Shown piece after piece: positions 14,157 to 59,903 of a stretch of 64,000 nt of DNA. Origin of the DNA: Herbidospora yilanensis (GTDB lineage Bacteria > Actinomycetota > Actinomycetes > Streptosporangiales > Streptosporangiaceae). The translations under genes and the position numbers were made by a program. Every line of letters begins with the position of its first letter. The first letter of the stretch is position 1. The DNA is taken from the NCBI RefSeq assembly GCF_001570565.1, contig NZ_BBXE01000047.1, forward strand, positions 1-64,000, written 5' to 3'. A model generated the notes under the pieces. That model saw only the letters and a list, made by a program, of their open reading frames with translations. It searched no databases and had not been told where the DNA came from.

Positions 14157-15465
<1,309 letters not shown>

Positions 15466-39182: not shown

Positions 39183-40391
39183 GTGAGGAAACGCACGATC
39201 ATCAGCGCGGGATTGGCCGCGGTCGTCCCGTTATTGGCAGGAATAGTGGCGCTCACCGTGTCGCCGGTCGCCGCGGCGGTCGGCGGTTCGGGCCCGTACC
39301 CCGCCGATTGGGACGGCAGCCTGCAGAACCACACCGTCTACCGGCCCGTCACCATCCCGTCCCAGCGACTCCCTATATACGTGTGGGGCAACGGCGGTTG
39401 CTCCGCCAACGGGTTGTCGCAGGCGAACTTCCTGCGTGAGATCGCCTCGCACGGATTCCTGGTCATCGCCAACGGCAGCCCGAACGGCTCCGGCTCGACG
39501 ACCTCCCAGATGCTCACCCAGTCGATCGACTGGGCGGTCTCGGAGAACGGCCGCCAGGGGAGCGTCCTCTACAACAGGCTCGACACCGGCAAGATCGCGG
39601 TCGGCGGGTTCTCCTGCGGAGGGCTGGAGGCCTACGCCGTCTCCAACGACCCGCGCATCTCCACGACCACCATCTTCAGCAGCGGGTTGCTGAACGACGG
39701 CGACGACTACCAGCTCCGGCGGCTGACGAAGCCGATCGCCTACTTCATCGGCGGGACCAGCGACATCGCCTACCCGAACGCCATCGACGACTGGGGCAAG
39801 CTGCCTTCGGGACTGCCCGCGTTCATGGGCAACCTGAACGTCGGCCACGGCGGCACCTACGGCCAGACCAACGGCGGCGAGTTCGGCCGGGTGGCGGTGT
39901 TGTGGCTGAAGTGGCGGCTGAAGGGCGACACGACGGCCGGCGGCGCCTTCGTCGGCGACAACTGCGGTCTGTGCAACACGCAGTGGCAGATCCAGCGGAA
40001 GAACCTCACGCTCGACGGCACCCCTTCCCCGTCGCCCAGCCCGTCGCCCAGTCCCTCGCCCAGCCCGAGCCCCAGTCCCAGCCCGTCACCCGGGACTCAG
40101 GGTTGTTCGGCGACCTACACCGTGCAGGACCAGTGGGGCGGCGGGTTCGTCTCGTCCATCAACGTCACCGCGGGCAGCGCCGCGATCAACGGCTGGAGGT
40201 TGGCCCTGACCCTGCCCTCCGGTGCGACGATCACCTCGTTGTGGAACGGCGTCAACTCCGGCACCAGCGGATCCGTGACCGTCACCAACCAGAGCTACAA
40301 CGGGCGACTGGCAGCCGGGCAGAGTGCCACCCTCGGTTTCCAGGGCACCGGAACCGGCGCGGGGGCCACTGTCACCTGCACCGCCACCTGA
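39183..40391 (+). CDS. Secreted alpha/beta hydrolase with C-terminal CBM2
   Basis: The 402-residue exported enzyme has a signal peptide to about Ala35. Its hydrolase domain (to about residue 275) has an oxyanion-type IYVWGNGGC strand and a nucleophile elbow GGFSCGG (Ser144); the later FIGGTSD and VGHGG carry the probable Asp and His. A Ser-Pro linker of about ten repeats follows. Then comes CBM2 (CSATYTVQDQWGGGFVSSINVTAGSAAINGWRLAL...). The substrate is probably a plant-wall ester; the catalytic family is not certain. GTG 39183 follows GGAGGG. Codon 17 is a rare TTA. A hairpin terminator follows. Confidence 0.85.
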   Translation: MRKRTIISAGLAAVVPLLAGIVALTVSPVAAAVGGSGPYPADWDGSLQNHTVYRPVTIPSQRLPIYVWGNGGCSANGLSQANFLREIASHGFLVIANGSPNGSGSTTSQMLTQSIDWAVSENGRQGSVLYNRLDTGKIAVGGFSCGGLEAYAVSNDPRISTTTIFSSGLLNDGDDYQLRRLTKPIAYFIGGTSDIAYPNAIDDWGKLPSGLPAFMGNLNVGHGGTYGQTNGGEFGRVAVLWLKWRLKGDTTAGGAFVGDNCGLCNTQWQIQRKNLTLDGTPSPSPSPSPSPSPSPSPSPSPSPGTQGCSATYTVQDQWGGGFVSSINVTAGSAAINGWRLALTLPSGATITSLWNGVNSGTSGSVTVTNQSYNGRLAAGQSATLGFQGTGTGAGATVTCTAT

Positions 40392-40406
40392 CATAGGCGT
40401 CACCAG

Positions 40407-40434
40407 CCCGTGGCCGGATCGGCCACGGGTCTTT
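40407..40434 (+). terminator. Rho-independent-type terminator after the esterase-CBM2 gene
   Basis: CCCGTGGCC (40407-40415) pairs perfectly with GGCCACGGG (40421-40429) around a 5-base loop and is followed by TCTTT. It lies 16 bases after the stop. Confidence 0.8.
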
Positions 40435-40480
40435 GGTGTACGCCGATACGTGACTCTCCGGAATCAAGTGAATACGATTC

Positions 40481-40861
40481 GTGCTCATGCGTGCCTTCTT
40501 CGCCGCGGCCGTCGTGGCCGTCCCGCTGTTCGCCGCCCACCCGGCCGTGGCCGAAACGCCCGTCGGAGCCCTGATCCTCACCATGACCGTCGACGGCGGA
40601 GCGCCGACGGCCGCCAAGCTCTTCTGCGATCCGGACGGAGGCACGCACACCACTCCCACGCAGGCCTGCGACCTGCTCCGGCCGGTGCGGGGCGACCTCG
40701 GCAGGCTGACGCACGGACCCGGCCAGATCTGCACCAAGGAATACCTCCCGCACCGGGTCACGGCCGTCGGCGTCTGGGAGGGCAAGCCGATCCGCTACGC
40801 CAGGACCTTCGGGAACCGATGCGAGATGATCGCGGCGACGGGGGCCGTCTTCACCTTCTGA
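40481..40861 (+). CDS. Subtilisin-inhibitor-like (SSI) secreted protease inhibitor
   Basis: The 126-residue protein has a signal peptide ending in AHPAVA. The mature SSI fold shows the family blocks: LILTMTVDGG, LFCDPDGGTHTTPTQACDLLRPVRGDL, CTKEYLPHRVTAVGVWEGKPIRYARTFGNRCEM and a final VFTF. Four Cys make two disulfides; the reactive bond should lie in the ICTKEYLP loop. Its role is to block extracellular serine proteases, which could protect the secreted hydrolases encoded around it. Start is GTG 40481 or ATG 40487. Confidence 0.88.
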   Translation: MLMRAFFAAAVVAVPLFAAHPAVAETPVGALILTMTVDGGAPTAAKLFCDPDGGTHTTPTQACDLLRPVRGDLGRLTHGPGQICTKEYLPHRVTAVGVWEGKPIRYARTFGNRCEMIAATGAVFTF

Positions 40862-40868
40862 GGCGCGT

Positions 40869-41882
40869 TCAGCGGCGGCGGAGGCGGGCGTGCCGCAGGG
40901 CGGGCGGGGTGGTCTCGTAGTTGTCCCTGGGGTCGAGGTCGGTTCCCGGCGGGACGATGGCGTCGACGCGGTCGAGGATGTCGCCGGTCAGGTCGACCTC
41001 GGCGCCGGGCAGCAGCCCGTCGAGCTGGTCGGCGGTGCGCGGGCCGATCAGCACGGACGTGACGGCCGGGTGTGCCCGCGCGAAGGCGACCGCGAGTTGC
41101 GGCAGGGTCAGCCCGGCCTCGGCGGCGAGGTCGGTCAGTTCGGCGAGCGCGGCGGCCTTGAGCGCGCCGGCCGGGGTCGCCGGGTCATACCGGCCCGGCA
41201 GCAGTGAGGCGCGGTGGCCGGTCGCCAGGTCGGCGCGGCCGGAGAGCCAGCCGCCGTTGAGCGGGCTGAACGTCAGGACGCCCATGCCGTGGCGGTGGGC
41301 GGTCGGGAACACGGCCGCCTCGGGCTTGCGGGTGAAGACGGAGTACATCGACTGCTCGGTCAGGAACCGGTGGCCGCCCGTGCGCTGGGCGGCCCACTGC
41401 GCCTCGGTGATCAGCTCGGCGGGGAACATGGAGGAGCCGAAGGCGCGGATCTTGCCGGCGCGGACGAGGTCGGTCAGGGCCGAGAGCGTCTCGCCGACGT
41501 CGGTCTCGTGGTCGGGGCGGTGCATCTGGTAGAGGTCGATGTGGTCGACGTCGAGGCGGCGCAGGCTGTCGTCGACCGCCCTGACGATCCACCTGCGGGA
41601 ACCACCCCGCCGGTTGGGGTCTTCGCCCATCGGCAGCCCGAACTTGGTGGCGATCACCACGTCGTCGCGGCGGCCCTTCACGGCCTTGGCGACGATCTCC
41701 TCACACTCGCCGTGGGAGTAGACGTCGGCGGTGTCGATCACGTTGACGCCCGCGTCGAGCGCGCGGTGGATGACGTGGATCGCGTCGTCGTGGTCGCGGT
41801 TGCCCATGCTGCCGAACATCATCGCGCCGAGGGACAACTCGCTGACGGACATCCCGGTCGCGCCGAGAGTTCTGCGTTTCAT
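40869..41882 (-). CDS. Aldo/keto reductase
   Basis: The 337-residue TIM-barrel NADPH oxidoreductase has the catalytic tetrad visible in VIDTADVYSHGECEEIV (Asp, Tyr), VVIATKFGLPMG (Lys) and LYQMHRPD (His). A cofactor-binding SVLIGPRTADQLDG lies near the C-terminus. It is divergent from an AraC gene across a 94-base gap with an inverted repeat, so it is the likely target of that regulator. The substrate (sugar or aldehyde) is not predictable. Confidence 0.9.
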   Translation of the reverse strand: MKRRTLGATGMSVSELSLGAMMFGSMGNRDHDDAIHVIHRALDAGVNVIDTADVYSHGECEEIVAKAVKGRRDDVVIATKFGLPMGEDPNRRGGSRRWIVRAVDDSLRRLDVDHIDLYQMHRPDHETDVGETLSALTDLVRAGKIRAFGSSMFPAELITEAQWAAQRTGGHRFLTEQSMYSVFTRKPEAAVFPTAHRHGMGVLTFSPLNGGWLSGRADLATGHRASLLPGRYDPATPAGALKAAALAELTDLAAEAGLTLPQLAVAFARAHPAVTSVLIGPRTADQLDGLLPGAEVDLTGDILDRVDAIVPPGTDLDPRDNYETTPPALRHARLRRR

Positions 41883-41949
41883 GTGGTCAGTCCACCAAGC
41901 CGGGCGGTCGGGCCGTGAGCCCGATCCTGCCGCCGCCTTGCCCGATCCT

Positions 41950-41968
41950 GTCAACGAGGGTGGTTGAC
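41950..41968. promoter_or_regulatory. Inverted repeat in AKR-AraC divergent promoter region
   Basis: GTCAAC-GAGGGTG-GTTGAC is a perfect 6-base inverted repeat with a 7-base spacer, placed 8 bases before the araC start. It could be the regulator's own site. Confidence 0.45.
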
Positions 41969-41976
41969 TGGCGCGC

Positions 41977-42861
41977 ATGGAGCTCCTGGACGAGATGCGG
42001 CGGCTGATCATCCGCCACACCGCCGGCGACCGTCAGAGGACGATCACGGGCGGGGTCACCATCGCGTCCGTGGCGTGTCCGACCCCGCCGGTCGCCACGG
42101 TCTCCGAGCCGTCGCTCGCGATCGTCGCGCAGGGCGTCAAGCGCACGGTGCTCAACGGCGTCCCGTACGACTATCGCGCCGGGCAGTACGTCGTCGTGTC
42201 GGTCGACCTCCCGGTGATCGGCCAGGCGCTGGAGGCGAGCCCGGACGAGCCGTTCGTGGTCTTCAGCATGGCGCTGAGCCCGGCCGTCGTCGCGCCGCTG
42301 CTGCTGGAGGTCGCCGTGACCGGGCCGCCCCCGGCCTTCACCGGGCTGGCGGTGAGCGACGCGACACCGGAGTTGCTGGATCCGGTCGTACGCCTGCTGC
42401 GCGTCGCCGACCGGCCCGACGACCTGCGGGTGCTCGCGCCCGGATACCAGCGGGAGATCCTCTGGTGGCTCCTCAGCGGCGACCAGGGCGCGCTCGTGCG
42501 GCAGATCGGTCTCGTCGACGGCAACCTCGCGCTCATCTCGCGGGGCATCCGCTGGATCCGCGAGCACTACCGGGAGCATCTCGTCGTCGCCGACCTGGCC
42601 GGGTTGTGCGGGATGAGCGCGTCGTCCTTCCACCGGCACTTCCGCGCGGCGACGTCGATGACGCCGGTCCAGTTCCAGAAGCAGATCCGGCTCCAGGCGG
42701 CCCGCACCCTGCTCATGACCAGATCGGGGAACGTCGCGGAGGTCGGTTACTTCGTCGGTTACGAGAGCCCGTCGCAGTTCGGCCGCGAATACCGCAAGGC
42801 GTTCGGCGCCTCCCCCGGCCGGGACGCCGCGCGACTGGCGGCCGTGGCGCGGAACCGGTGA
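41977..42861 (+). CDS. AraC-family regulator with AraC_N domain
   Basis: The 294-residue protein has an N-terminal cupin-like domain (PSLAIVAQGVKRTVLNGVPYDYRAGQYVVVSVDLPV) of the AraC_N type. A double helix-turn-helix follows: HLVVADLAGLCGMSASSFHRHFRAATSMTPVQFQKQIRLQAAR, then GNVAEVGYFVGYESPSQFGREYRKAFGASPGRD. It is intact and probably controls the adjacent aldo/keto reductase. Confidence 0.9.
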   Translation: MELLDEMRRLIIRHTAGDRQRTITGGVTIASVACPTPPVATVSEPSLAIVAQGVKRTVLNGVPYDYRAGQYVVVSVDLPVIGQALEASPDEPFVVFSMALSPAVVAPLLLEVAVTGPPPAFTGLAVSDATPELLDPVVRLLRVADRPDDLRVLAPGYQREILWWLLSGDQGALVRQIGLVDGNLALISRGIRWIREHYREHLVVADLAGLCGMSASSFHRHFRAATSMTPVQFQKQIRLQAARTLLMTRSGNVAEVGYFVGYESPSQFGREYRKAFGASPGRDAARLAAVARNR

Positions 42862-42874
42862 CGGGCTGCCGTCC

Positions 42875-42893
42875 GGCGTGAAAGTTTCACGCC
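42875..42893. promoter_or_regulatory. Perfect palindrome GGCGTGAAA-G-TTTCACGCC
   Basis: The inverted repeat with a one-base centre lies 13 bases after the araC stop, between convergent genes. The tight centre makes a poor terminator loop. Its minus-strand core GAAACTTTCAC recurs at 39015-39025, just after the paaX stop. It resembles operator boxes described for streptomycete xylanase genes. Confidence 0.4.
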
Positions 42894-42999
42894 GGGCGCT
42901 GGACGCGGCGCGTGGACCAGACCACTCGGGCCTGCTCCGGCGAGCGGTGGAACTGGAGCCGTACGATTCGGTGTCCGCAGCGCTGCTCGGACCGATCGG

Positions 43000-43407
43000 T
43001 CAGGGGGCGGGCGCGGAGAACAGCTTGATCACGGGCGGGGTGAACCCGGTGTCGTGATCGTCGTACCAGGTGGGGTTCCAGTAGAGCGCCGTCACGGCGA
43101 CGTAACCGACGAGCACCGCCTGCGCGACCGCCGGCCACTTCCCCTGCCGTCTGGCCAGGAACAGCAGATTGACCAAGAGGACCGCCGCCAGGGCGAAGGC
43201 GGGGTAGGCCCCGAGCAGCCGCCTGCGCATCTCGTCCAGGTACTGCTCGCGGGTGGGGTCGCCGAGCCCTCGGATGACGCTGTCGCCGTCGCCGAACAGC
43301 GTGTTGCGCTTCACCTCGTCGAGGTGCCAGAACATGCCGCCGATCACGGCCACGTCGAGCACGGCGATCAGGGCGATGATCAGGATCGTGCGGAGAGTCG
43401 GGCGCAT
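43000..43407 (-). CDS. Small membrane protein of unknown function
   Basis: The 135-residue protein has an N-terminal helix (TILIIALIAVLDVAVIGGMFWHL), a charged extracellular loop (GDSVIRGLGDPTREQYLDEMRRRLL) and two or three more helices (YPAFALAAVLLVNLLFLA and AVAQAVLVGYVAVTALYW). No family is recognised. It stands alone. Confidence 0.6.
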   Translation of the reverse strand: MRPTLRTILIIALIAVLDVAVIGGMFWHLDEVKRNTLFGDGDSVIRGLGDPTREQYLDEMRRRLLGAYPAFALAAVLLVNLLFLARRQGKWPAVAQAVLVGYVAVTALYWNPTWYDDHDTGFTPPVIKLFSAPAP

Positions 43408-43539
43408 CCGACGGTTCCTTTCGTGGACGTCGTCCGGGCGTCGCCCTGCCTCCGGGAAGGGGGCAGAGCGACGGACACGGGGACCCAGGAGTGTGGTGCC
43501 ACCCAGGCCCTACGACGTCGCGCCGGACAGGCTCGGCCC

Positions 43540-43553
43540 TGTTAGCGCTATCA
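43540..43553. promoter_or_regulatory. LacI-type operator candidate upstream of the xylanase operon
   Basis: TGTTAGCGCTATCA is a near-perfect palindrome with one mismatched pair, centred on the CG step typical of LacI-family sites. Similar sequences occur at 53630 (TGTTAACGCTCACA) and 58663 (TGTTAGCGTTAACG). Confidence 0.5.
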
Positions 43554-43826
43554 CATCGTAGTGCGACCTCCCTTCGGCGTCCCGGCGTCGGTGGTGCTGG
43601 CGGTGAGTAAATACAGCGGGTGGGACGGCGTCAAGGGGCGTCGGGGGCGGTTCCGGCGCGGCGTCACCCGCTGACAAGCCGTTTCGGTGTCCGTAATTTA
43701 CGGCGTGAGCATGAAACTTGCAGCTTTCCGGTGCCGGTAAATTTTCGTCGCCCGCCTGCGTCGCGCTGCCTCGTCGATCCCTGTCCGCGGGCACGGGGGC
43801 GATATCAGGCCAGGATGCATGGCTGC

Positions 43827-43875
43827 CGAAAATTTCGCTCCGGTGTTGACATGTTTCGGTTGGGTTTCCACACTA
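43827..43875 (+). promoter_or_regulatory. Candidate xylanase promoter with CGAAAATTTCG box
   Basis: The perfect palindrome CGAAAATTTCG (43827-43837) lies 8 bases ahead of TTGACA (43846-43851). A weak -10 CACACT (43869-43874) is 17 bases further. The box resembles the CGAAACTTTCG elements I recall from streptomycete xylanase promoters. Confidence 0.45.
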
Positions 43876-43932
43876 AGTCTCCGAGGCGGTCGGCCCAGCC
43901 TGATGTGGTGATCAGAGGGCCGCCGGTCATGA

Positions 43933-46838
<2,906 letters not shown>

Positions 46839-46846
46839 GTCCACCA

Positions 46847-46884
46847 CCGGGTCTGGGTGATTTCGGGCGATCACCCAGGCCCGG
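46847..46884. terminator. Bidirectional hairpin between xylanase operon and marR
   Basis: A 15-base stem, 46847-46861 with 46870-46884 (one G-T pair), encloses an 8-base loop. It ends the plus-strand operon nine bases after its stop and overlaps the 3' end of the convergent marR gene. Confidence 0.7.
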
Positions 46885-47302
46885 GCGGGTGCAGCGCACG
46901 GGTGCACCACGTCAGGGCCTCCAGCAACGTGACGCGTGTGCTGTCGTCGAGGCCGGCCAGCATGTCGTCTTCGATGCCGTCGAGCGCCCGGTCGCACCTC
47001 CGCAGCGCCGCCCGGCCCTGGCGCGACAGACGGACACGCAGGATCCGCCCGCCGTCAGGATGGGCGTCGCGGTGGATGAGACCGCGTTTCTCCAGGTCGC
47101 GGACGACCAGGTGCATCGCCTGCGGGGTGACGAAGGCGATCCGGGCCAGTTCGGCCGACGACAGGTCGTCGCGTACACGAAGTTCGCTGAGCGCCATGTA
47201 TTCGGTCGTCGTGACGCCGTGGAGCGCGAGGGCCTCGTCGAGCCGGGCGCGGATGCGGCGCTCCAGCCGGTAGACCAGATAGCTCAGCCTGGGCGGGTTC
47301 AC
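46871..47302 (-). CDS. MarR-family regulator
   Basis: The 143-residue winged-helix protein: YMALSELRVRDDLSSAELARIAFVTPQAMHLVVRDLEKRGLIHRDAHPDGGRILRVRLSRQGRAALR contains the recognition helix and the DxGGR wing. It is divergent from the esterase-CBM2 gene at 47497, with a perfect ATCAAG palindrome between. MarR proteins commonly sense phenolics, and several control hydroxycinnamate catabolism, which fits the nearby esterases and CoA ligase. The effector is inferred. Confidence 0.88.
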   Translation of the reverse strand: MNPPRLSYLVYRLERRIRARLDEALALHGVTTTEYMALSELRVRDDLSSAELARIAFVTPQAMHLVVRDLEKRGLIHRDAHPDGGRILRVRLSRQGRAALRRCDRALDGIEDDMLAGLDDSTRVTLLEALTWCTRALHPPGPG

Positions 47303-47342
47303 CGCATGACCATAACGGGCGATGTAAGTTTCCGGGCGTGAA

Positions 47343-47359
47343 TATCAAGCTACTTGATA
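47343..47359. promoter_or_regulatory. MarR-type operator
   Basis: TATCAAG-CTA-CTTGATA is a perfect 7-base inverted repeat with a 3-base centre in the divergent marR/esterase region, 41 bases before marR and 138 before the esterase. It has the usual form of MarR sites. Confidence 0.7.
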
Positions 47360-47496
47360 AGCAATGGCCCGATGACCAGCGTGAGCAGCGCATTTCCATG
47401 ATCGCTCGATTGTGATCCTGAACGGGCGACGCTTGACCGGGGTTCCGCGGCGCTCGTATACCGGCTGTCGTCAGGACGTCGACCAGAGGAGGGCCG

Positions 47497-49666: not shown

Positions 49667-49694
49667 AACGAAAGCGTAGACGGGCCAGATGTCA

Positions 49695-49726: not shown

Positions 49727-49738
49727 CAAGGAGGTCCC

Positions 49739-50599: not shown

Positions 50600-50613
50600 T
50601 AGTGGGCAAAGGA

Positions 50614-50642
50614 TTGACGTCCGTCATGAATGTGCCTAACCT
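50614..50642 (+). promoter_or_regulatory. Promoter of the MFS gene with embedded TGAC-N4-GTCA
   Basis: TTGACG (50614-50619) and TAACCT (50637-50642) are separated by exactly 17 bases. The -35 box lies within TGAC-GTCC-GTCA (50615-50626), matching the core of the divergent paaX/amidohydrolase palindrome. Confidence 0.65.
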
Positions 50643-50688
50643 CCGGGCAGCAGGCGCAGCGGCTCACTCCCTGATCGAGGAGCTTGTC

Positions 50689-51987
50689 ATGTCGGACCCG
50701 TCGGTCTTACCCCACAGCCAGGTTCAGCTCCGCCGCGCGGTGGCCTCAAGCTTCCTGGGCAGCGTCATCGAGTACTACGACTTCCTGCTGTACGCCACCG
50801 CTTCGGCGGTGGTGTTCGGGAAGGTCTTCTTCTCCACCCTCGACCCGCTCACGGCCACGGTCGCCAGCTTCGGCACCTTCGCCACCGGCTATCTCGCCCG
50901 GCCCCTGGGCGGGGTGATCTTCGGCCACTTCGGCGACCGGCTCGGCCGCAAGCGCATGCTGGTCCTCACCATGACCCTGATGGGTCTGGCGAGCTTCCTC
51001 ATCGGCGTGCTGCCCACCTACGACCAGATCGGCGTGCTCGCCCCCGTCGCGCTGGTCGCGCTGCGGATCGTGCAGGGCCTCGCCATCGGCGGCGAGTGGG
51101 GCGGGGCCGTGCTGATGTCGGCCGAGCACGCCACCAGCAGGCGCGGTCTGTGGGCGAGCTTCACCAACGCCGGCGCCCCCTTCGGCATGGTGCTCTCGAC
51201 CGGCGCGCTGAGCGGCACCGCCGCGCTCCTCGACGAACAGGCGTTCCTGAGCTGGGGCTGGCGGGTGCCGTTCCTGCTGAGCATCCTCCTGCTGGCCGTC
51301 GGGCTGTTCGTCCGGCTGCGGGTCGAGGAGACCCCGGTGTTCGCGGCGGCCGGGCGCACCACCCGGATGCCGCTGCTGGAGGTGCTCCGCGACCACCCCA
51401 GGACCCTGCTGCTCGGCGTGGGCGTCGGCCTGTCGGCCTTCGTGGCGCAGGGCACGCTCACCACCTACCTGATCGCCTACGGGGTGCGGACCGGCTTCGC
51501 CCGCCAGGACGTGCTGAACGGCCTGACCCTCTCGTCGGCGCTGGCCGTGGTGAGCATCATCGGCTGGTCGGCGCTCTCCGACCGGACCGGCCGGCGGCCC
51601 GTCGTGCTGACCGGCGCGCTGCTGATGGCCGCCTTCGCGTTCGTGTTGTTCCCGATGGTGAACACCGGGAGCGTCGTGGTGCTCACCCTGGCGCTGGTGC
51701 TCGGCCAGGCGATCATCCACCCGCTGATGTACGGCCCGCTCGCCGCCCTCTACGCCGAACTCTTCCCCACCAGGAACCGGTACACGGGCGCCTCGCTCGG
51801 CTACCAGTTCGCCGGGCTCGGCGCCGGCCTCGGACCGCTGCTGTTCGCCCAGCTCGACGCCTCGTCGGGCGGCGGCGGCACGACGGCGATCTCCATCGTC
51901 ATCGCCGTGTGCTGCCTGGTGACGGTCGGCTGCGTGCTGGCGCTGCGGGAGACCAGCACCCGAGACCTCGCCGCCACCGATGCGTAA
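50689..51987 (+). CDS. MFS transporter of the metabolite/aromatic acid:H+ symporter type
   Basis: The 432-residue protein has 12 helices. The first loop pair EYYDFLLYATASAVVFGKVFF and the GGVIFGHFGDRLGRKRMLVLTM motif, with GGEWGGAVLMSAEHA, place it in the MHS branch, which imports organic and aromatic acids with protons. GGAG lies 7 bases before ATG 50689. Codon 7 is TTA. It overlaps the CoA ligase by eight bases, implying co-translation: import followed by CoA activation. Confidence 0.9.
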   Translation: MSDPSVLPHSQVQLRRAVASSFLGSVIEYYDFLLYATASAVVFGKVFFSTLDPLTATVASFGTFATGYLARPLGGVIFGHFGDRLGRKRMLVLTMTLMGLASFLIGVLPTYDQIGVLAPVALVALRIVQGLAIGGEWGGAVLMSAEHATSRRGLWASFTNAGAPFGMVLSTGALSGTAALLDEQAFLSWGWRVPFLLSILLLAVGLFVRLRVEETPVFAAAGRTTRMPLLEVLRDHPRTLLLGVGVGLSAFVAQGTLTTYLIAYGVRTGFARQDVLNGLTLSSALAVVSIIGWSALSDRTGRRPVVLTGALLMAAFAFVLFPMVNTGSVVVLTLALVLGQAIIHPLMYGPLAALYAELFPTRNRYTGASLGYQFAGLGAGLGPLLFAQLDASSGGGGTTAISIVIAVCCLVTVGCVLALRETSTRDLAATDA

Positions 51988-53434
51988 CGCCGGGCTCGGC
52001 GGCTGGCCCGCCCGCCGCGCCCGGATGAGCCCCGGCCGGACCGCGTTCGTGTACGCCGGCCGTCCGGTGACCTACGCCGAGTTCCACGAAAGGACCACCC
52101 GCCTGGCCTCCCGGCTGGACATCCGGCCGGGAGACCGGGTCGCCTATCTCGGCCCCAACCACGTGGCGCTGGCCGAGACCATGTTCGCCACCCACCTGCT
52201 CGGCGGGGTGTTCGTCCCGCTGAACTTCCGCCTGGCCGCGCCCGAGATCGCTTACATGCTGCGCGACTCGGGCGCGTCCCTCCTCGTGCACGACCCCGCG
52301 TACGCCCCGACGGAGCTGGAGATCCCGGCGGTGGACCTCGACGGGATCGAGGCGTGGATCGCGGCCGGCGACCCCGCCCCGATCGACGTGGCGGTCGCAC
52401 CGGGCGACGTGGCGCTGATCCTCTACACCTCGGGCACCACCGGCAGCCCGAAGGGCGCCATGCTGACCCACGCCAACCTGGTGTGGAACTGCGTCAACAT
52501 GATGATCGGCGTGGACCTGACGAGCACCGAGGTGACGCTGATCAGCGCGCCGCTCTTCCACGTCGCGGCCCTGAACCAGACCCTCCTGCCGACCTTCCTC
52601 AAGGGCGGCACCTCGGTGATCATGCCGTCGTGGCACGCCGACCGCTGCTACGACCTCATCGAGGAGCACGGCGTCACGTGGATGTTCGGGGTCACCACCA
52701 TGTTCGCCGACTTCGCCCGGTCGCCCCGCTGGCACGACGCCGACCTGTCGTCACTGCGCACCCTCATGTCCGGCGGGGCGCCGATCCCGGTGGCGCTGAT
52801 CCGGGCGTACCAGGAGCGCGGCCTGGTCTTCTGCCAGGGCTACGGGCTGACCGAGACGGCCCCCGGCGCCACCTTCCTGGAGGCGGCCGACAGCGAACGC
52901 CGGGCGGGCTCGGCCGGGGTGCCGGTCTTCTTCGCCGACGTGCGGGTGGACGCCCCCGCCGGAACCCCCGGCGAGGTGCTCATCCAGGGGCCGAACGTCA
53001 CCCCCGGCTACTGGCGCAACCCCGAGGCGACCGCCGCCGCCCTCACCGAGGACGGCTGGTTCCACTCCGGCGACGTCGGGGTCATGGACGACGAGGGGCA
53101 CCTCACCATCGTCGACCGCGTCAAGGACATGTACATCTCCGGCGGCGAGAACGTCTATCCGGCCGAGGTCGAGGCCGTGTTGTTCACCCATCCGGCGGTG
53201 GCGGAGGCGGCCGTGGTCGGCGTGCCCGACCCCCGATGGGGTGAGGTGGGCCGTGCCTTCCTCGTGCTCGTGGCGGGCGCCGAGGTGAGCGCCGGGGAAC
53301 TGACCGGCTTCCTGCGCGACCGGCTCGCGAAGTACAAGATCCCGGTGTATTTCGACGTCGTCGACGCCCTCCCGAAGACGGGCTCCGGCAAGATCCGCAA
53401 ACTGGAACTGCGTGCGCTCGGCGTGCCGAGATGA
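51980..53434 (+). CDS. Acyl/aryl-CoA synthetase (AMP-forming)
   Basis: The 484-residue ANL-superfamily enzyme: AMP-binding LYTSGTTGSPKGAMLTHANL (about residues 150-170), QGYGLTETAPGATF, the hinge region WFHSGDVGVMDDEGHLTIVDRVKDMYISGGENVYPAEVE, and the catalytic Lys in PKTGSGKIRKLELR. It activates a carboxylic acid, and the neighbours suggest an aromatic or phenylpropenoid acid. No hydratase or dehydrogenase is seen nearby, so later steps would be encoded elsewhere. Confidence 0.9.
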   Translation: MRNAGLGGWPARRARMSPGRTAFVYAGRPVTYAEFHERTTRLASRLDIRPGDRVAYLGPNHVALAETMFATHLLGGVFVPLNFRLAAPEIAYMLRDSGASLLVHDPAYAPTELEIPAVDLDGIEAWIAAGDPAPIDVAVAPGDVALILYTSGTTGSPKGAMLTHANLVWNCVNMMIGVDLTSTEVTLISAPLFHVAALNQTLLPTFLKGGTSVIMPSWHADRCYDLIEEHGVTWMFGVTTMFADFARSPRWHDADLSSLRTLMSGGAPIPVALIRAYQERGLVFCQGYGLTETAPGATFLEAADSERRAGSAGVPVFFADVRVDAPAGTPGEVLIQGPNVTPGYWRNPEATAAALTEDGWFHSGDVGVMDDEGHLTIVDRVKDMYISGGENVYPAEVEAVLFTHPAVAEAAVVGVPDPRWGEVGRAFLVLVAGAEVSAGELTGFLRDRLAKYKIPVYFDVVDALPKTGSGKIRKLELRALGVPR

Positions 53435-53938
53435 AGGTTTCAGCGGCTCGTGATCTACGCGAACGGCGCAGGGAGGTCCGAAACCCCAGGACCTCTGGCG
53501 CCGCGACACGCCCCGCTGTTTCTCGGAATGTTTCATACTCTTGACGCTGCCCAGTCGGCTGTTGTTTGCTACGCAAGACCTGTCAGGGTGGATTCACAGG
53601 AAGAAAGGAGCTGTGGCGACATGTGTGCGTGTTAACGCTCACATGTCGGTGAACTGCGCATCGTCTGAGGATGGACGCCGCATCCCTCCGCAGAGGTCGT
53701 CGATGAGGAGCCGCTGGTGAGAAGGCTCTTCCTGCTCCCGAGCTCCTGATCAGACCGATATGCGCCACACAGATGTCACGGCGGCCCCGGCTGGTATCCG
53801 GTTGTGCCACTCCGGTCACCGGCCGGGCCGCCTCGTCTCCCCTTGGACAGCACGCCGGACGCGCCGGCCCTGTTCTTCGCCTGCCCTGAAGCCGGTCGAG
53901 AGCGACCTCATCGTCCTACCGAGCGCAGAGGAAGTCGC
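53435..53938. other. Long regulatory region before the CE1/beta-helix genes
   Basis: These 504 bases lack a convincing gene. They hold TTGACG (53541-53546), a GGAATGTTTCATAC stretch and the large palindrome at 53617-53648. Confidence 0.5.
53617..53648. promoter_or_regulatory. Composite palindrome with LacI-type core
   Basis: CGACATGTG (53617-53625) and its complement CACATGTCG (53640-53648) flank TGTTAACGCTCACA (53630-53643), a LacI-like site similar to those at 43540 and 58663. It lies about 290 bases before the CE1-CBM13 start. Confidence 0.55.
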
Positions 53939-55267
53939 ATGACGTCAAGGTTAAGATCGATTCTCACGGCCGTCGTGGCGGCGGCCGGGCTGGTGCTGGC
54001 CGCAGGGCTGACGGCGACACCGGCCGGCGCCGCGGCGACCGCCGGGTGCGGGAAGGCGCCGACGCTCCGCAGCGGCACCCACACCATCCAGAGCAGCGGC
54101 AAGAGCCGGCAGTTCATCCTGCGGGTGCCCGACGGCTACGACAACAACCGGCAGTACCGGCTGATCTTCGCCTTCCACTGGCGGGGCGGCACCATGAACG
54201 ACGTCTCCTCCGGCGGCACCAGCGGGACCGCCTGGTCCTACTACGGGCAGCAGGAGCAGTCGAACAACAGCGCGATCCTGGTCGCGCCGCAGGGCTTCGG
54301 CAACGGCTGGGCCAACTCCGGCGGCGAGGACGTGCGCTTCGTCGACGACATGATCGCGCGCATCGAGAGCGACCTGTGCGTCGACACCACCCAGCGCTTC
54401 GCCACCGGGTTCAGCTACGGCGGCGGCATGAGCTACTCCCTGGCGTGCTCGCGGGCCACGGTCTTCCGCGCGGTCGCCGTCTTCGCCGGCGCCCAGCTCA
54501 GCGGGTGTGAGGGCGGCACGCAGCCCATCGCGTACATGGGCCTGCACGGGATCAGCGACAACGTGCTGAACATCTCCCAGGGACGGTCGCTGCGCGACCG
54601 GTTCGTCCGCAACAACGGATGCACCGCGCAGAACCCGCCGGAGCCCGCCGCCGGCAGCCGCAGCCACACCCTCACCACCTACTCGGGCTGCCGCTCCGGT
54701 TACCCGGTCGTCTGGGCCGCCTTCGACAACGGGCACATGCCCGGCCCGGTCGACGGCACCTACGCGGAGAGCGGTGTCACGACCTGGACCAAGGGCGAGG
54801 TGTGGAAGTTCTTCTCCCAGTTCGGCAGCGGCACCAACCCCAACCCCTCGCCGTCGCCCACGCCCACCACGTCTCCGGGCGCGACCGCTCCGCTGCGCGG
54901 GGTCGGCTCCGGCCGCTGCCTGGACGTCAGCGGCGCCTCCCAGGCCAACGGCGCGGTGATCCAGCTCTGGGACTGCAACGGGCAGGCCAACCAGCAGTGG
55001 ACCACCACCGCCGCCGGTGAGCTGCGGGTCTACGGCGGCAAGTGCCTCGACGTGAGCGGCGCGGGCACCGCCGACGGCACCGCGGTGACCATCTGGGACT
55101 GCAACGGCCAGAACAACCAGAAGTGGCGCCTCAACTCCGACGGCAGCATCACCGCCGTCGGCGCGAACAAGTGCCTCGACGTGTCCAACTACGGCACCGC
55201 CAACGGCTCCCGGATCCACATCTGGGCCTGCCACGGCGGCACCAACCAGCGCTGGACGCGCGCCTGA
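53939..55267 (+). CDS. Secreted CE1/feruloyl-esterase-like enzyme with CBM13
   Basis: The 442-residue protein has a signal peptide ending AGAAA. Its catalytic domain (RQFILRVPDGYDNNRQYRLIFAFHWRGG) differs from the two other CE1 enzymes and resembles FaeB/polyhydroxybutyrate-depolymerase-type feruloyl esterases. Ser159 is in TGFSYGGGMSYSLAC; His is likely in AFDNGHMPGP. Seven or more Cys suggest disulfides. A Ser-Pro linker and three CBM13 repeats (CLDVSG, CLDVSG and CLDVSN) follow. GAGGAAG precedes ATG 53939; codon 5 is TTA. It is 42 bases before the beta-helix gene, probably one operon. Confidence 0.85.
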   Translation: MTSRLRSILTAVVAAAGLVLAAGLTATPAGAAATAGCGKAPTLRSGTHTIQSSGKSRQFILRVPDGYDNNRQYRLIFAFHWRGGTMNDVSSGGTSGTAWSYYGQQEQSNNSAILVAPQGFGNGWANSGGEDVRFVDDMIARIESDLCVDTTQRFATGFSYGGGMSYSLACSRATVFRAVAVFAGAQLSGCEGGTQPIAYMGLHGISDNVLNISQGRSLRDRFVRNNGCTAQNPPEPAAGSRSHTLTTYSGCRSGYPVVWAAFDNGHMPGPVDGTYAESGVTTWTKGEVWKFFSQFGSGTNPNPSPSPTPTTSPGATAPLRGVGSGRCLDVSGASQANGAVIQLWDCNGQANQQWTTTAAGELRVYGGKCLDVSGAGTADGTAVTIWDCNGQNNQKWRLNSDGSITAVGANKCLDVSNYGTANGSRIHIWACHGGTNQRWTRA

Positions 55268-55309
55268 GAAAGCGGCCCCCGGCCGAACGCTCCCCCCAAG
55301 GAAGGCTCC

Positions 55310-57697
55310 ATGCTCCCGTTCTCCTTATCCGCCCTGAGAAGGGTGTTGTCCGCCGGGACCACCGCGCTCGGGCTCACCGTGGCGGTCACCGTCGCGGCCC
55401 CGGTCTCCCCGGCCGCCGCGGCGACCACGACCCTGTACGTCTCGGCCACCGGTTCTGGCACCGCGTGCACCTCGGCGCAGCCGTGCTCGATCTCGGCGGC
55501 CCAGACGGCGGTCCGGTCGCTGAACGCCGCCATGTCCGGTGACATCGTCGTCGAACTGGCCGCGGGCACCTACCGGCTGACCACGCCGCTCAGGCTGACG
55601 GCCGCCGACTCGGGCAACAACGGCTACACCGTGCGCTGGCAGGCCGCCGCCGGCGCCCGGCCGGTGATCACCGGCGCCCGGGCCGTCACCGGCTGGACGC
55701 TGGCCGACTCCGCCAAGAACATCTGGCGGGCCAACGTGGGCACCGGCGTCGACACCCGCCAGCTCTACGTCAACGGCGCGGCCGCGATCCGGGCGCGCAC
55801 CCAGGTCAACCGGGCCGACTTCACCGCGAGCAGCACCGGCATGCGCTTCACCAACAGCGCCCTGAACTACCTCAACAACCTGGCGAACCAGAGCCGGGTC
55901 GAGATGGAGAGCGTCGGGTCGTTCACCGACCGGTACTCCCCGGTGCAGAGCATCAGCGGCGGCCAGATCACGATGCAGCAGCCGGCCTGGAACAACAACA
56001 ACTTCGGCTACGACACCTTCACCCAGCCGCACCGGGCCGGGCCGCTCTACCTGGCCAACGCCTACGAGTTCCTCGACGCCGCGGGCGAGTGGTACCTCAA
56101 CACCGGCACCGGGGTCCTCTACTACATCCCGGCCTCCGGCCAGAACATGAGCAGCCTCAGCGTCGAGATGCCGGTGCTGCAGTCACTGGTGTCGGTGGGC
56201 GGCACCCTGTCCGCGCCCGCCCACCACATCACGTTCTCCGGCATCACCTTCACCGGCACGACGTGGCTCGGCCCGAGCAGCAACCAGGGCTTCGTCGACC
56301 AGCAGACCGGTTCCTACATCTACGGCAACTGGAGCTGGCCCGGCTTCTCGACCTGCCACAACGGATGCACGCAGTTCGAGGCCGCCCGGCCGAACTGGAA
56401 CCAGATGCCCGCGGCCGTGCAGATCTCGGCGGCCGACAGCATCACCTTCGGCGACTCCCAGTTCGTCAACCTCGGGCAGACCGCCATCGGGATCGGCAAC
56501 GACGCCAACGCCAACACCAGCGGCGTCGGCCTGGCGGCGAGCAACATCACGATCACCCGGTCGGAGATCGCCCGCAGCTCGGCCGGCGGCGTCGTGGTCG
56601 GCGGGGTCAGGGCCGACGCCCACCACCCCAGCGACCAGCGCATGGTCAACCGCAACATCACGATCAGCAACAACCGCATCCACGACCTGGGGCTGGACTA
56701 CCGGGGCATCGTGTCGGTGCTGACCACCTACGTCAGCGACGCGACGGTGTCGTACAACGAGGTCTACAACATGCCCTACACCGGCATGTCGATCGGCTAC
56801 GGCTGGGGCGCCAACGACACCGGCGGCAACACCCAGTACGCCAACCGGGGCCTGTACAACTACCAGCCCCGCTACACGACCCCGACGACCGCCTCGAACA
56901 ACCGGCTCATCGGCAACTACGTCCACGACGTGATGCAGCAGATGAACGACGGCGGCTGCATCTACACCCTGTCGTGGAACCCGGGCGCGGTCATCAGCGA
57001 CAACTACTGCCTGCGCACCAACGGGCACTTCGGCGTCTACTTCGACGAGGGGTCCAAGTACTACACCGTCAGGAACAACGTCTTCTCCTCCATCGGAGTG
57101 TGGGCCACCGCCAACTACTGGGGCGGGGAGAACATGGGCAACTGGACGGTCACCGGGAACTGGACCAGCAGCAGTTCCACCAACGTGACCAACGGTGACC
57201 GGGGCAACGTCGTCAACAACAACGTCGTCGTCTCCAACGGAAGCTGGCCCTCGGGCGCCCAGGCCGTCATGAACGCCGCCGGGCCGCAGGGCGGCACCAC
57301 CAACCCGCAGACCGTGGAGCTGGTGGGCGTGCAGTCGAACCGGTGCGTCGACGTGCAGAACAACAGCAACGCCAACGGATCGCCGACGCACATCTGGGAC
57401 TGCTCCGGGGTGTCCACCCAGCGGTGGACGCGGACGTCGTCCGGGCAGTTCACGGTGTTCGGGAACAAGTGCCTGGACGCCTCGGGCCAGGGCACCGCCA
57501 ACGGGACCCCGGTGGTGATCTGGGACTGCAACGGCGGCGCCAACCAGCGGTGGACCGTCAACGCCGACGGCACCATCTCCGGCGTCCAGTCGGGGTTGTG
57601 CCTGGACGTGTCCGGCAACGCCACGGCCAACGGCAGCCGCGTGCAGCTCTGGTCCTGCCACGCCGGCGCGAACCAGCGCTGGACCCTGCGGGGCTGA
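55310..57697 (+). CDS. Secreted right-handed beta-helix enzyme with CBM13
   Basis: The 795-residue exported protein has a signal peptide ending near SPAAAA. Next comes TTLYVSATGSGTACTSAQPCSISAAQTAVRSLN, the usual entry strand of beta-helix polysaccharide enzymes. A beta-helix of about 580 residues follows, with many Asn-ladder turns (ITISNNRIHDLGLDY, ATVSYNEVYNMPYTGMSIGYGWG and VISDNYCL). It ends in a CBM13. The layout recalls GH141-like enzymes or lyases acting on plant polysaccharides; I cannot fix the family. It is strongly similar to the truncated gene at 62883. Codon 6 is TTA (55325-55327). Confidence 0.82.
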   Translation: MLPFSLSALRRVLSAGTTALGLTVAVTVAAPVSPAAAATTTLYVSATGSGTACTSAQPCSISAAQTAVRSLNAAMSGDIVVELAAGTYRLTTPLRLTAADSGNNGYTVRWQAAAGARPVITGARAVTGWTLADSAKNIWRANVGTGVDTRQLYVNGAAAIRARTQVNRADFTASSTGMRFTNSALNYLNNLANQSRVEMESVGSFTDRYSPVQSISGGQITMQQPAWNNNNFGYDTFTQPHRAGPLYLANAYEFLDAAGEWYLNTGTGVLYYIPASGQNMSSLSVEMPVLQSLVSVGGTLSAPAHHITFSGITFTGTTWLGPSSNQGFVDQQTGSYIYGNWSWPGFSTCHNGCTQFEAARPNWNQMPAAVQISAADSITFGDSQFVNLGQTAIGIGNDANANTSGVGLAASNITITRSEIARSSAGGVVVGGVRADAHHPSDQRMVNRNITISNNRIHDLGLDYRGIVSVLTTYVSDATVSYNEVYNMPYTGMSIGYGWGANDTGGNTQYANRGLYNYQPRYTTPTTASNNRLIGNYVHDVMQQMNDGGCIYTLSWNPGAVISDNYCLRTNGHFGVYFDEGSKYYTVRNNVFSSIGVWATANYWGGENMGNWTVTGNWTSSSSTNVTNGDRGNVVNNNVVVSNGSWPSGAQAVMNAAGPQGGTTNPQTVELVGVQSNRCVDVQNNSNANGSPTHIWDCSGVSTQRWTRTSSGQFTVFGNKCLDASGQGTANGTPVVIWDCNGGANQRWTVNADGTISGVQSGLCLDVSGNATANGSRVQLWSCHAGANQRWTLRG

Positions 57698-57704
57698 TGA
57701 AACG

Positions 57705-57735
57705 AGGGGGGCCGGTCTCGGCGTCCGGCCCCCCT
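57705..57735 (+). terminator. Hairpin terminator after the beta-helix gene
   Basis: AGGGGGGCCGG (57705-57715) pairs perfectly over 11 bases with CCGGCCCCCCT (57725-57735) around a 9-base loop, eight bases after the stop. Confidence 0.8.
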
Positions 57736-57789
57736 TCGGCGTGGATGTGCGGCCTCATGGTGAGGTCCATCAGTCGTACTCTTGGAGGT

Positions 57790-58545
57790 GTGGCAGAGCA
57801 GACGAGCGGCGTGGAGCGGGCGGCGGCCCCTTATCGGCCCGGATACGAGGTGGCGGCGGAGCAGGTGCTGGAGCTGATCAGCCGGCTGCGGCTGCGGCCG
57901 GGTGACCGCATGCCCACGGAGATAGACCTGGCGCAGCGGCTGGGCACCAGCCGCACGGTGGTCCGCGAGGCGGTGAAGATCCTGTCCGCCCTGGGCCGGG
58001 TGCGGGCGCACAAGGGGCGCGGCCTCTATGTGGCCGACGACGAGGGCATGCTCGGGACCGGCCGGTGGGCGCCGTTCTTCCTCCCGACCGACCTCGACCA
58101 CGTCTACATGCTGTTCGAGTTCCGGCGTACCCAGGAGATGGAGACCAGCCGCCTGGCCGCGCGCCGGGCCACGCCCGCGGAGCTGCACGAGATCGAGAAG
58201 GCCGCGGGCGTCTGCCGGCATGGGTTCGACACCGACCGCGGAGACCTGTTCAACGAGGGCGACGACGCCTTCCACACGGCCATCGCGACGGCGTCCCACA
58301 ACATGTTCCTTCAGGTGGCCGTCAGGGAGGCACGGCGGCTCCAGGCGCAGTCGAGCCTGATCGGCATGAGCGGCTCGATCGGCGGCCACGCGGCCAAGGC
58401 GGTCGAGGAGCACGAGGCCATCTTCCAGGCGATCCGCGTCGGCGACGCCGAGGCCGCGGCGGAGGCCGCCGCCGCCCACATCGACAACACCCTGGCGGAC
58501 TATCGGAGAGAGATTCAGCAACGGATCTTCTCGGCGACCGAATAA
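57790..58545 (+). CDS. GntR-family regulator (FadR/FCD subfamily)
   Basis: The protein of about 251 residues: winged helix YEVAAEQVLELISRLRLRPGDRMPTEIDLAQRLGTSRTVVREAVKILSALGRVRAHKGRGLYV, then an all-helical FCD effector domain with metal-binding His residues (AFHTAIATASHN, VEEHEAIFQAI). FCD regulators sense sugar acids and similar carboxylates. GTG 57790 may be leaderless, since TACTCT at 57777-57782 would place the transcript start on it; ATG 57757 is an alternative. It precedes the ABC import operon and probably controls it. Confidence 0.85.
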   Translation: MAEQTSGVERAAAPYRPGYEVAAEQVLELISRLRLRPGDRMPTEIDLAQRLGTSRTVVREAVKILSALGRVRAHKGRGLYVADDEGMLGTGRWAPFFLPTDLDHVYMLFEFRRTQEMETSRLAARRATPAELHEIEKAAGVCRHGFDTDRGDLFNEGDDAFHTAIATASHNMFLQVAVREARRLQAQSSLIGMSGSIGGHAAKAVEEHEAIFQAIRVGDAEAAAEAAAAHIDNTLADYRREIQQRIFSATE

Positions 58546-58549
58546 GTAT

Positions 58550-58564
58550 TGACGTAAGACGTCA
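58550..58564. promoter_or_regulatory. GntR-type operator before the ABC import operon
   Basis: TGACGT-AAG-ACGTCA is a perfect 6-base inverted repeat with a 3-base centre, directly after the gntR stop and 68 bases before the binding-protein start. ACGTAA (58553-58558) and TTACGT nearby form a second, overlapping pair. Confidence 0.6.
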
Positions 58565-58631
58565 TACGAATTACGTTCCGGTTCACATGAGCGGCCGGGC
58601 CGACCGGCCGCCGCCGGGAGAGTGAACAGCG

Positions 58632-59903
58632 ATGAAGCGAACCCTGTGCGCGGGCGTTGTGGTGTTAGCGTTAACGGTTGCCGGGTGCGGCAGTGCGACG
58701 AGTCCCGCGTCCACGCCGACCGGATCGGCCGCGGCCGGCACGACCAAGCTCGTGGTCTGGGACTGGAAGTCCGGTGAGCCCTACGCCGCCTCGTACATCG
58801 AAAAGGCGAAGGCCGACTTCGCCAAGAAGCACCCGAACGTCACCGTCGAGTTCGTGCCCCAGCCGTTCGAGCAGTACTACACCCTGCTCGGCGCCGCCAT
58901 GCAGACCAAAACCGGGCCCGACGTCATGCTCTTCAACGGTGGCGGCCAGATCCGCGACCGGGCCGACTCGCTGCTGCCCATCGACGAGTACGTGGCCGAA
59001 GACCGCTCGCGCCTGGCCGGCTGGGAGGCCTTCGCCAAGGACGGCAAGACCTACGCCGCCCCGGTGACGCTCCAGGGCCACCCGATCTACTACAACAAGG
59101 CCCTCTACGAGAAGGCCGGTCTCGCCGCCCCCGCCACGACGTGGGACGAGTTCCTCGCCAACTGCGACAAGATCAAGAAGGCGACCGGCGCCGCCTGCTT
59201 CGCCCTCGGCAACAAGGAGGGCATCGGGCCGCAGTTCTGGCTTTCCGGCCTCGGCTCGGGCGTCCTGACACCGGCCGAGTACGACGCCTGGATCGCCGGC
59301 CAGCGCGACTGGAAGTCCCCCCACGTCAAGAAGATCTTCGAGATGTGGAAGGAAGCGGGGGACAAGGGCCTCAACAACGAGGGCGCCAACTCCACGGCGA
59401 TGTTCACCGACATCTTCTCCGTCTTCAACACCGGCAAGGCGGCCCACATCATCGGCCTGATGTCCGACATCGGCCACTGGAAGGACTTCGGCGAGTTCAT
59501 CGGCCCCGACAAGGTCGGCGTCATGCTCGCCCCGACCGTCACCCAGGGGGCCACGCCGAGCCTGGCCTACGACGGCGGCATCGGCTACGCGGTGGCCAAG
59601 TGGACGAAGGACCCGAAGGCCGCGGCCGATCTGGTCCGGTCGCTGACCACCACCGACGCCCTGTCGTCCTTCTCCGCCGAGGCGGGCGCGATCGCGTCCG
59701 ACACCACCATCACCGCGCCCCAGGACGCTCCCGCCGTCGGCGTGATCGTGTTCCACCTCAAGACGGGCAAGCCGGCGCTGCACGTCGCGATGGACTCCAA
59801 GACCATCGACCTGATGGGGCGGTTGTCCCAGAAGCTGCTGAGCGGCTCGGCGACCGTCGACGAGGCGGTGGAGGAACTGGCCGCCTCCGACCAGGAGAAC
59901 TGA
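58632..59903 (+). CDS. Sugar ABC transporter solute-binding lipoprotein
   Basis: The 423-residue family 1 extracellular binding protein has a signal peptide with lipobox VAGC (Cys19). It then has KLVVWDWKSGEPYAASYIEKAKADFAKKHPNVTVEFVPQPFEQYYTLLGAAM, typical of carbohydrate-binding proteins. The signal region contains two TTA codons (58665 and 58671) inside a LacI-like palindrome TGTTAGCGTTAACG (58663-58676). It delivers its ligand, probably an oligosaccharide, to the next two permeases. No ATPase gene is seen, so a shared MsiK-type ATPase elsewhere is likely. Confidence 0.92.
   Translation: MKRTLCAGVVVLALTVAGCGSATSPASTPTGSAAAGTTKLVVWDWKSGEPYAASYIEKAKADFAKKHPNVTVEFVPQPFEQYYTLLGAAMQTKTGPDVMLFNGGGQIRDRADSLLPIDEYVAEDRSRLAGWEAFAKDGKTYAAPVTLQGHPIYYNKALYEKAGLAAPATTWDEFLANCDKIKKATGAACFALGNKEGIGPQFWLSGLGSGVLTPAEYDAWIAGQRDWKSPHVKKIFEMWKEAGDKGLNNEGANSTAMFTDIFSVFNTGKAAHIIGLMSDIGHWKDFGEFIGPDKVGVMLAPTVTQGATPSLAYDGGIGYAVAKWTKDPKAAADLVRSLTTTDALSSFSAEAGAIASDTTITAPQDAPAVGVIVFHLKTGKPALHVAMDSKTIDLMGRLSQKLLSGSATVDEAVEELAASDQEN

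Follow-up and report, generated by a model that had tools for sequence, protein, structure and literature searches.

The window described here is a stretch of 64,000 nucleotides from the actinomycete Herbidospora yilanensis (family Streptosporangiaceae; contig NZ_BBXE01000047.1, positions 1 to 64,000), and it contains a polysaccharide island in which the leucine codon TTA stands close to the start of six genes. The statistics presented below show that, in Herbidospora and several related genera, a UUA among roughly the first 20 codons has been selected for in some of the genes for exported proteins. In the explanation that we favor, and to which we give about even credence, the codon serves as a graded brake on the translation of these proteins, and the supply of one tRNA determines its strength.

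Codon frequencies were determined in 80 stretches outside the window (1,546,710 bases, or about a fifth of the genome, with 1,314 called genes), and signal peptides were called by two home-made rules, a loose and a strict one, rather than by SignalP. TTA is very rare genome-wide, with 110 occurrences in 417,311 codons, distributed over 103 of the 1,314 sampled genes (7.8%). In all sampled genes taken together, it makes up 37 of 2,989 leucine codons at codons 2-21 versus 63 of 36,917 past codon 41; this 5' bias is the steepest among all codons and is carried mostly by exported genes. Under the strict rule, TTA accounts for 23 of the 447 leucine codons at codons 2-21 of exported genes versus 9 of 1,927 in cytosolic ones (odds ratio 11.6, p=6.7e-11), with 3/253 in membrane and 2/362 in ambiguous genes; under the loose rule the counts are 26/643 versus 9/1,943 (odds ratio 9.1, p=8.6e-10). 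Counted by gene, a 5' TTA is present in 23/132 exported, 9/937 cytosolic, 3/80 membrane and 2/165 ambiguous genes (strict rule). Past codon 41 the codon is rare in both main classes and rarer in the exported one (3/2,893 leucine codons versus 48/26,137, strict rule), and cytosolic genes considered alone have a weak 5' bias (9/1,943 versus 48/26,355, p=0.015). The loose rule admits false positives such as FAD (flavin adenine dinucleotide) enzymes and one protein that by eye resembles aldo/keto reductases, while the strict rule sets apart 165 ambiguous and 80 membrane genes, with a 5' TTA in 2 and 3 of them, respectively. The gene caller places some starts too far downstream: it missed the start at 39183, whose TTA was thereby lost, and put the xylanase start two codons late. 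The genome-wide count that the first-pass annotation of the window had called for was thus carried out on about a fifth of the genome, and it places TTA at the 5' ends of exported genes.

The TTA-bearing genes of the window, with domains assigned by Pfam to the six genes of the island, are the following.

39183..40391, plus strand: exported CBM2 protein with weak PETase-like similarity (under the Pfam cut-off), earlier labeled an esterase; TTA at codon 17 (39231-39233).
44029..45510, plus strand: exported GH10 xylanase with a ricin-type lectin (CBM13-like) domain; TTA at codon 6 (44044-44046).
50689..51987, plus strand: MFS (major facilitator superfamily) transporter, a membrane protein that is not exported; TTA at codon 7 (50707-50709).
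53939..55267, plus strand: exported protein with a ricin-type lectin domain, earlier labeled CE1-CBM13; TTA at codon 5 (53951-53953).
55310..57697, plus strand: exported protein with a GH141 segment and a ricin-type lectin domain, earlier labeled beta-helix; TTA at codon 6 (55325-55327).
58632..59903, plus strand: ABC solute-binding lipoprotein; TTA at codons 12 and 14 (58665-58667 and 58671-58673).
9023..10237, minus strand: beta-propeller-like protein that has a signal peptide according to the loose rule; TTA at codon 41 (10115-10117).
6941..7828, plus strand: gene outside the loose-rule exported list, its product without a match in a Pfam scan; internal TTA at codon 135 (7343-7345).

All seven TTA codons that had been reported in the six island genes are in frame and at the codon numbers originally given, and the assignment of five of these genes to the exported class agrees with the signal-peptide rules, the MFS transporter being the exception. 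No called gene between 10383 and 28643, the menJ-nuo stretch, contains TTA, as had been proposed; a TTA at 15403 lies upstream of the ATG at which the gene ending at 16119 probably starts. The first-pass annotation had counted a single further TTA in an intact gene, the one at 7343, which we confirm, but had overlooked the one at 10115-10117 on the minus strand. Its CE1-CBM13 label for the product of 53939..55267 holds for the lectin domain, while the CE1 part is unconfirmed by Pfam. The cluster itself is real, since under the strict rule five of the eight exported genes of the island have a 5' TTA, which exceeds the rates in the rest-of-genome sample both for exported genes (23/132, binomial p=0.006) and for cytosolic ones (9/937, p=4.5e-9). 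The interpretation offered in the first-pass annotation is supported in part. The concentration in exported genes is borne out; a tie to polymer degradation is only suggestive, and we make no claim for an excess of carbohydrate-active domains: such domains, labeled by hand from Pfam lists, are present in 10 of 28 TTA-bearing predicted exported proteins (every gene that the loose rule calls exported and that has a TTA no later than codon 30) versus 4 of 30 TTA-free ones (a random draw from the 173 longer than 110 amino acids, of 190), with p=0.067.

The excess concerns one codon read in one frame. The other rare leucine codons show no excess in exported 5' ends, neither CTA (4/447 versus 14/1,927 in cytosolic genes) nor CTT (19/447 versus 84/1,927), and the difference for TTG is insignificant (z 1.4). 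The triplet TTA occurs 26, 3 and 4 times in frame 0 and the other two frames of exported 5' ends, and 9, 15 and 34 times in those of cytosolic genes, so the excess is confined to frame 0. When the comparison is stratified by codon position, TTA comes out top among the codons tested, with an odds ratio of 8.7 and z=6.9.

The concentration of 5' TTA in exported genes recurs in Herbidospora, Nonomuraea, Microbispora, Planomonospora/Planobispora and Acrocarpospora. For the six other Herbidospora genomes, 180 kb around the island or the xylanase was taken from each (plus 40 kb for one), and a 5' TTA is present in 9/20, 8/18, 8/18, 6/17, 6/21 and 11/35 exported genes, with 2/104, 1/101, 1/109, 1/113, 1/103 and 0/119 cytosolic genes in the same order; these stretches are syntenic, with mostly the same genes, and hence not independent samples. 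The other genera are represented by 67 of 78 xylanase-neighborhood loci (ten Herbidospora loci and one Actinoplanes locus were excluded) with the xylanase, which served as bait, removed. Exported versus cytosolic genes with a 5' TTA number 27/105 versus 1/188 in Nonomuraea, 4/32 versus 0/97 in Microbispora, 8/21 versus 0/60 in Planomonospora and Planobispora together, and 4/15 versus 1/51 in Acrocarpospora. The pattern was not seen in a small Streptomyces sample (exported 1/25, cytosolic 1/83), and the difference between Nonomuraea and this small sample has p=0.015.

Conservation of the individual TTA sites is mixed. The xylanase protein is 88-93% identical to those of Herbidospora species and at most 83% identical to those of other genera, some fragment matches apart. 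Its codon 6 is TTA in all seven Herbidospora orthologues, the window included. In the 78 loci, this codon could be read in 47, whose match starts with the first residue or close to it (L097 among them is uninformative because it was read inside the gene); it is TTA in 4/6 from Planomonospora and Planobispora, 3/6 from Microbispora, 1/2 from Acrocarpospora, the one from Thermoactinospora, and 3/16 from Nonomuraea (one of the 16 being misread). Many copies elsewhere have ATG or ATA at this position, and five of six Streptomyces copies have CTC or CTT. The TTA of the esterase-labeled gene at 39183 is present in all five Herbidospora genomes read, including the window, and that of the MFS gene at 50689 in five of six, the sixth having ATA. 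The CE1-type gene at 53939 has the codon-5 TTA in 2/5 Herbidospora, two others carry one at codon 23-24 and one lacks it; between 53939-55267 and its orthologues in loci L051 and L105 it looks as if a 5' TTA had been retained while its site shifted. A TTA at the same site is found in 3/7 Herbidospora for the beta-helix gene at 55310, and in one of six relatives for the binding-protein gene at 58632, where one more relative has a TTA nearby and four have none. Free variation of these codons in close relatives had been named as an outcome that would speak against a role for them; within Herbidospora, the xylanase, esterase and MFS codons do not vary in this way, and those of the beta-helix, binding-protein and CE1 genes largely do. 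When leucine sites are aligned in the 5' ends of exported genes, TTA is retained in 130 of 150 pairs (11 families, bootstrap 0.68-0.99), and CTT and CTA together in 28 of 51 (6 families, bootstrap 0.20-0.77).

A single tRNA-Leu(UAA) gene (C15:255563-255636) was found among 57 tRNA matches at E<=0.001 in the assembly, a draft of 67 contigs in which a gap may hide another copy. The tRNA covariance searches list places without anticodons; a small leucine model led to the gene, and a pattern built on the leucine D-arm gave no match in this genome. For one of the 57 matches (C49:29579) ARAGORN gave no clear anticodon, and in the stretches holding six weaker matches it gave no further UAA tRNA. The tRNA is 75 nucleotides long, with a variable loop that we read as 5 nucleotides. 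The bldA tRNA of streptomycetes has a long variable arm, and thus the decoder found here, having a short loop and no long arm, is not bldA by type; the first-pass annotation had suggested looking for a bldA-like tRNA-Leu(UAA), and a UAA gene does exist, though not of this kind. Variable loops are also short in the UAG, the CAA and one CAG leucine tRNA, while another CAG tRNA and the GAG tRNA have the long arm; the short, type-I-like leucine tRNAs (UAA, UAG, CAA and one CAG) lie at L151:1501-1575, L039:7037-7111, L135:7917-7990 and L042:14310-14384. Of 396 genomes in the phylum, 224 have a match to a pattern covering both forms of the UAA tRNA, and among the matches listed the short form occurs in at least six families of the same class (f2, f4, f5, f6, f8, f9) and the long form in at least two (f3, f7), in one of which the UAA tRNA has the sequence that we take to be bldA. 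The pattern matched 32 of the 81 genomes of the order to which Herbidospora belongs, the UAA tRNAs of the other 49 not having been sought in other ways, and the short form makes up 31 of the 33 matches listed there. We considered the short leucine tRNAs as a trait specific to the family and dropped the idea, the short UAA form being present in other actinobacterial families as well.

UUA is also read in genes of growth. It is present in 56 of the 937 cytosolic genes, of which an NCBIfam scan covered ten, picked by eye for their resemblance to known families from the 52 longer than 140 amino acids, and so speaks to existence and not to rate; it identified RecR, SelB, an RpoD-family sigma factor and a GyrB-type subunit that scored under the gyrB cut-off. 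The recR TTA (L031:3918-4517, minus strand) is an interior one, at codon 164, and is present in all seven Herbidospora genomes searched. A further cytosolic gene, L172:7791-9662 on the minus strand, has TTA at codon 244 and encodes fused NuoE-like and NuoF-like parts, both below the equivalog cut-offs. Because UUA occurs in growth genes, tRNA-Leu(UAA) is presumably present during growth, and judging from the gene sequences its strict absence at that stage is unlikely.

The following mechanism would account for these observations. Ribosomes on mRNAs with a 5' UUA would wait for tRNA-Leu(UAA) before or during the synthesis of the signal peptide, and the supply of this tRNA would thereby set how strongly the exported enzymes are produced. 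Such waiting would be cheap, as the ribosome has only just started, and the presence of UUA in growth genes would make the brake a graded one and not an on/off switch. The scarcity of the tRNA may stem from development, from nutrition or just from a low copy number. A tRNA-based reading is favored by the fact that the excess is specific to TTA and does not extend to CTA and CTT. A more far-reaching version, which we put forward only tentatively, is that the short-arm tRNA-Leu(UAA) may act as a secretome dial across Streptosporangiaceae: its charged level would set the translation of those exported enzymes that have a 5' UUA, and the arrangement would have arisen apart from Streptomyces bldA, with the same codon and a different class of genes.

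Several observations weigh against a tRNA-set brake. About one in six exported genes (23/132) has a 5' TTA at all, and the sites are poorly conserved in three of the six window genes (beta-helix, binding protein and CE1). The bootstrap intervals for the retention of TTA and of CTT and CTA overlap, and CTC (254/299) and CTG (500/579) are retained as often as TTA. The interior recR codon is as conserved as the best 5' site (7/7), so conservation alone is not proof of regulation. The decoder is of a short type common to several other actinobacterial families, and UUA lies inside genes such as those of RecR, the GyrB-type subunit and the RpoD-family factor. The pattern does not reach significance in a pool of other Streptosporangiales, Streptosporangium and four more (exported 6/25, cytosolic 1/47, p=0.12), in Actinomadura and Actinoallomurus (0/6 versus 1/35) or in one Actinoplanes locus (0/6 versus 0/10 by the loose rule, xylanase removed). 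Finally, AAA (z 3.4) and GCA (z 3.2) are moderately enriched in exported 5' ends too, which would suit a broader effect of codon choice in signal peptides and, together with the concentration of TTA in these regions, favors a role in export.

Such a role is the strongest competitor and a serious possibility, albeit one that we hold to be doubtful. UUA may slow the first rounds of elongation and so let the signal peptide engage the export machinery, as described for non-optimal codons in signal sequences of E. coli, with no regulation through tRNA supply. This would explain why TTA is concentrated at codons 2-21 of signal-peptide genes and why AAA, GCA and, weakly, AGA accompany it, and the available text of a review reports that non-optimal codons in Sec signal peptides aid export (PMC5875014). 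It is harder to reconcile with the lack of excess of the rare codons CTA and CTT, with the minority of exported genes that have TTA, with the small effect in membrane proteins (3/253) and with the missing pattern in the small Streptomyces sample (1/25 exported genes).

The developmental switch that the first-pass annotation had in mind, in which tRNA-Leu(UAA) would be available only late, as with bldA, and polymer-degrading enzymes would be made at a set stage, is not borne out and appears improbable. The family is mycelial and sporulating, there is a 5' TTA bias, and one tRNA-Leu(UAA) was found. The decoder, however, has no long arm, UUA is present in recR of all seven species and in other growth genes, and the 103 TTA-bearing genes in a sample of 1,314 compare with 147 chromosomal genes in S. 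coelicolor, according to the portion of a review available to us (PMC4255298).

It is very unlikely that the tRNA is irrelevant and that an A+T-rich codon near the start acts by loosening the RNA structure. Codons ending in A or T do become more frequent toward the start in all three classes (exported, cytosolic and membrane), but beyond codon 7 this rise is nearly equal in exported and cytosolic genes, and the excess of TTA is restricted to one frame. Compared with CTG, TTA makes the predicted 5' fold weaker by 1.70 kcal/mol at the real sites, by 1.52 kcal/mol at other leucine sites of the same genes and by 1.81 kcal/mol in TTA-free exported genes; mRNA folding was rejected as the cause, since the real sites loosen the fold no more than other leucine sites (p=0.46). 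Together with the in-frame restriction and the absence of a CTA or CTT excess, this result means that the signal is the codon as translated and not DNA or RNA composition. Least credible of all is that TTA reflects relaxed selection, with fast-evolving signal peptides gaining A/T-rich codons, or recent import from donors of lower GC content: signal peptides do evolve faster than mature parts in other Actinobacteria, according to the accessible part of one study (PMC3729583), but CTT and CTA should then rise and do not, TTG is insignificant, several TTA sites are kept across species, and the bodies of exported genes are poorer in TTA than cytosolic genes, which argues against recent import.

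Apart from its codon 6, the xylanase gene is preceded by a region (window positions 43846-44028) with a promoter-like hexamer and a candidate leader RNA, each of whose two hairpins carries a GTGGTG motif in the window.

43846..43851, plus strand: TTGACA, resembling a promoter -35 element, invariant in 29 aligned xylanase loci.
43878..43976, plus strand: candidate two-hairpin structured leader RNA of the xylanase gene, without an Rfam match.

A palindrome, CGAAAATTTCG (43827-43837), adjoins the TTGACA just upstream of the leader, an arrangement that resembles an operator with a promoter. No Rfam family matched in the window at its gathering score, and a permissive scan gave one chance-level match (E=0.84) in a neighboring stretch; a literature search on the leader found nothing among the titles listed, and in one of these papers xylanase comes up only in a reference. 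A covariance model built from 29 sequences has 58 matches (E up to 0.1) in the window and the 78 xylanase loci, and of 12 matches inspected ten lead into GH10-xylanase-like genes and two have no called gene close downstream. One copy is present in the H. yilanensis genome; across the order, 19 of 81 genomes have one to four, a count made with filters under which weak matches are lost. With the model-fitted alignment, both partners vary in 23 of 30 pairs, as compared to 13.0 in shuffles (0 of 500 as high) and 4 to 13 in slid versions. The unfitted MAFFT alignment gives weaker support, 8 of 30 pairs versus 6.2 in shuffles (100 of 500 as high), and this rests on hairpin II, in whose inner stem four of seven pairs are supported. 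RNAalifold kept 22 pairs on the longer MAFFT alignment, three of them changed on both sides, and only six on the fitted alignment, and four leaders folded singly show nothing out of the ordinary (z -1.3 to +0.6). The leader at 43878-43976 is a good candidate, not yet proven, for a new RNA that regulates GH10 xylanase genes in cis.

Control through TTA is known from Streptomyces, and it is of interest that several genera of another family have a 5' bias of the codon and have it in exported proteins. The question of odd codons in signal peptides becomes directly testable in these organisms with one codon or one tRNA, and the finding is relevant to the recoding of such enzymes for expression. Fuglsang reportedly worked on the intragenic position of UUA in Streptomyces. 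In the literature surveyed, which left out most subscription journals and was available in part, we found no description of an excess of TTA in exported genes. A review states, in its available part, that TTA codons of non-Streptomycineae genomes have no bias toward gene starts (PMC4255298); the exported genes of Streptosporangiaceae sampled here disagree with this statement.

Compared to bldA control in Streptomyces, the likeness lies in the rarity of TTA, its 5' positional bias and the one tRNA-Leu(UAA) found. The differences are that bldA has a long arm which the tRNA described here lacks, that TTA occurs in a larger share of genes here (103 of the 1,314 sampled), growth genes among them, and that a 5' TTA here marks exported proteins. 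In 213 Streptomyces species, by contrast, TTA genes are frequently enriched in transcription, signaling, replication/repair and secondary metabolism, and the words 'secreted' and 'signal peptide' are absent from the text of that study accessible to us (PMC10327506). Non-optimal codons in signal peptides are reviewed with citation of Zalucki and co-workers in the part of PMC5875014 at our disposal; signal-peptide coding regions are concerned in both cases, but that work deals with non-optimal codons in general, while here TTA alone is significant among the leucine codons. The case nearest in gene content may be a polysaccharide-degrading gene pair of a Streptomyces, said in the title of one study to be linked to a TTA codon: polysaccharide-degrading genes are likewise involved here, and what differs is that a single pair is replaced by a statistical pattern across genera.

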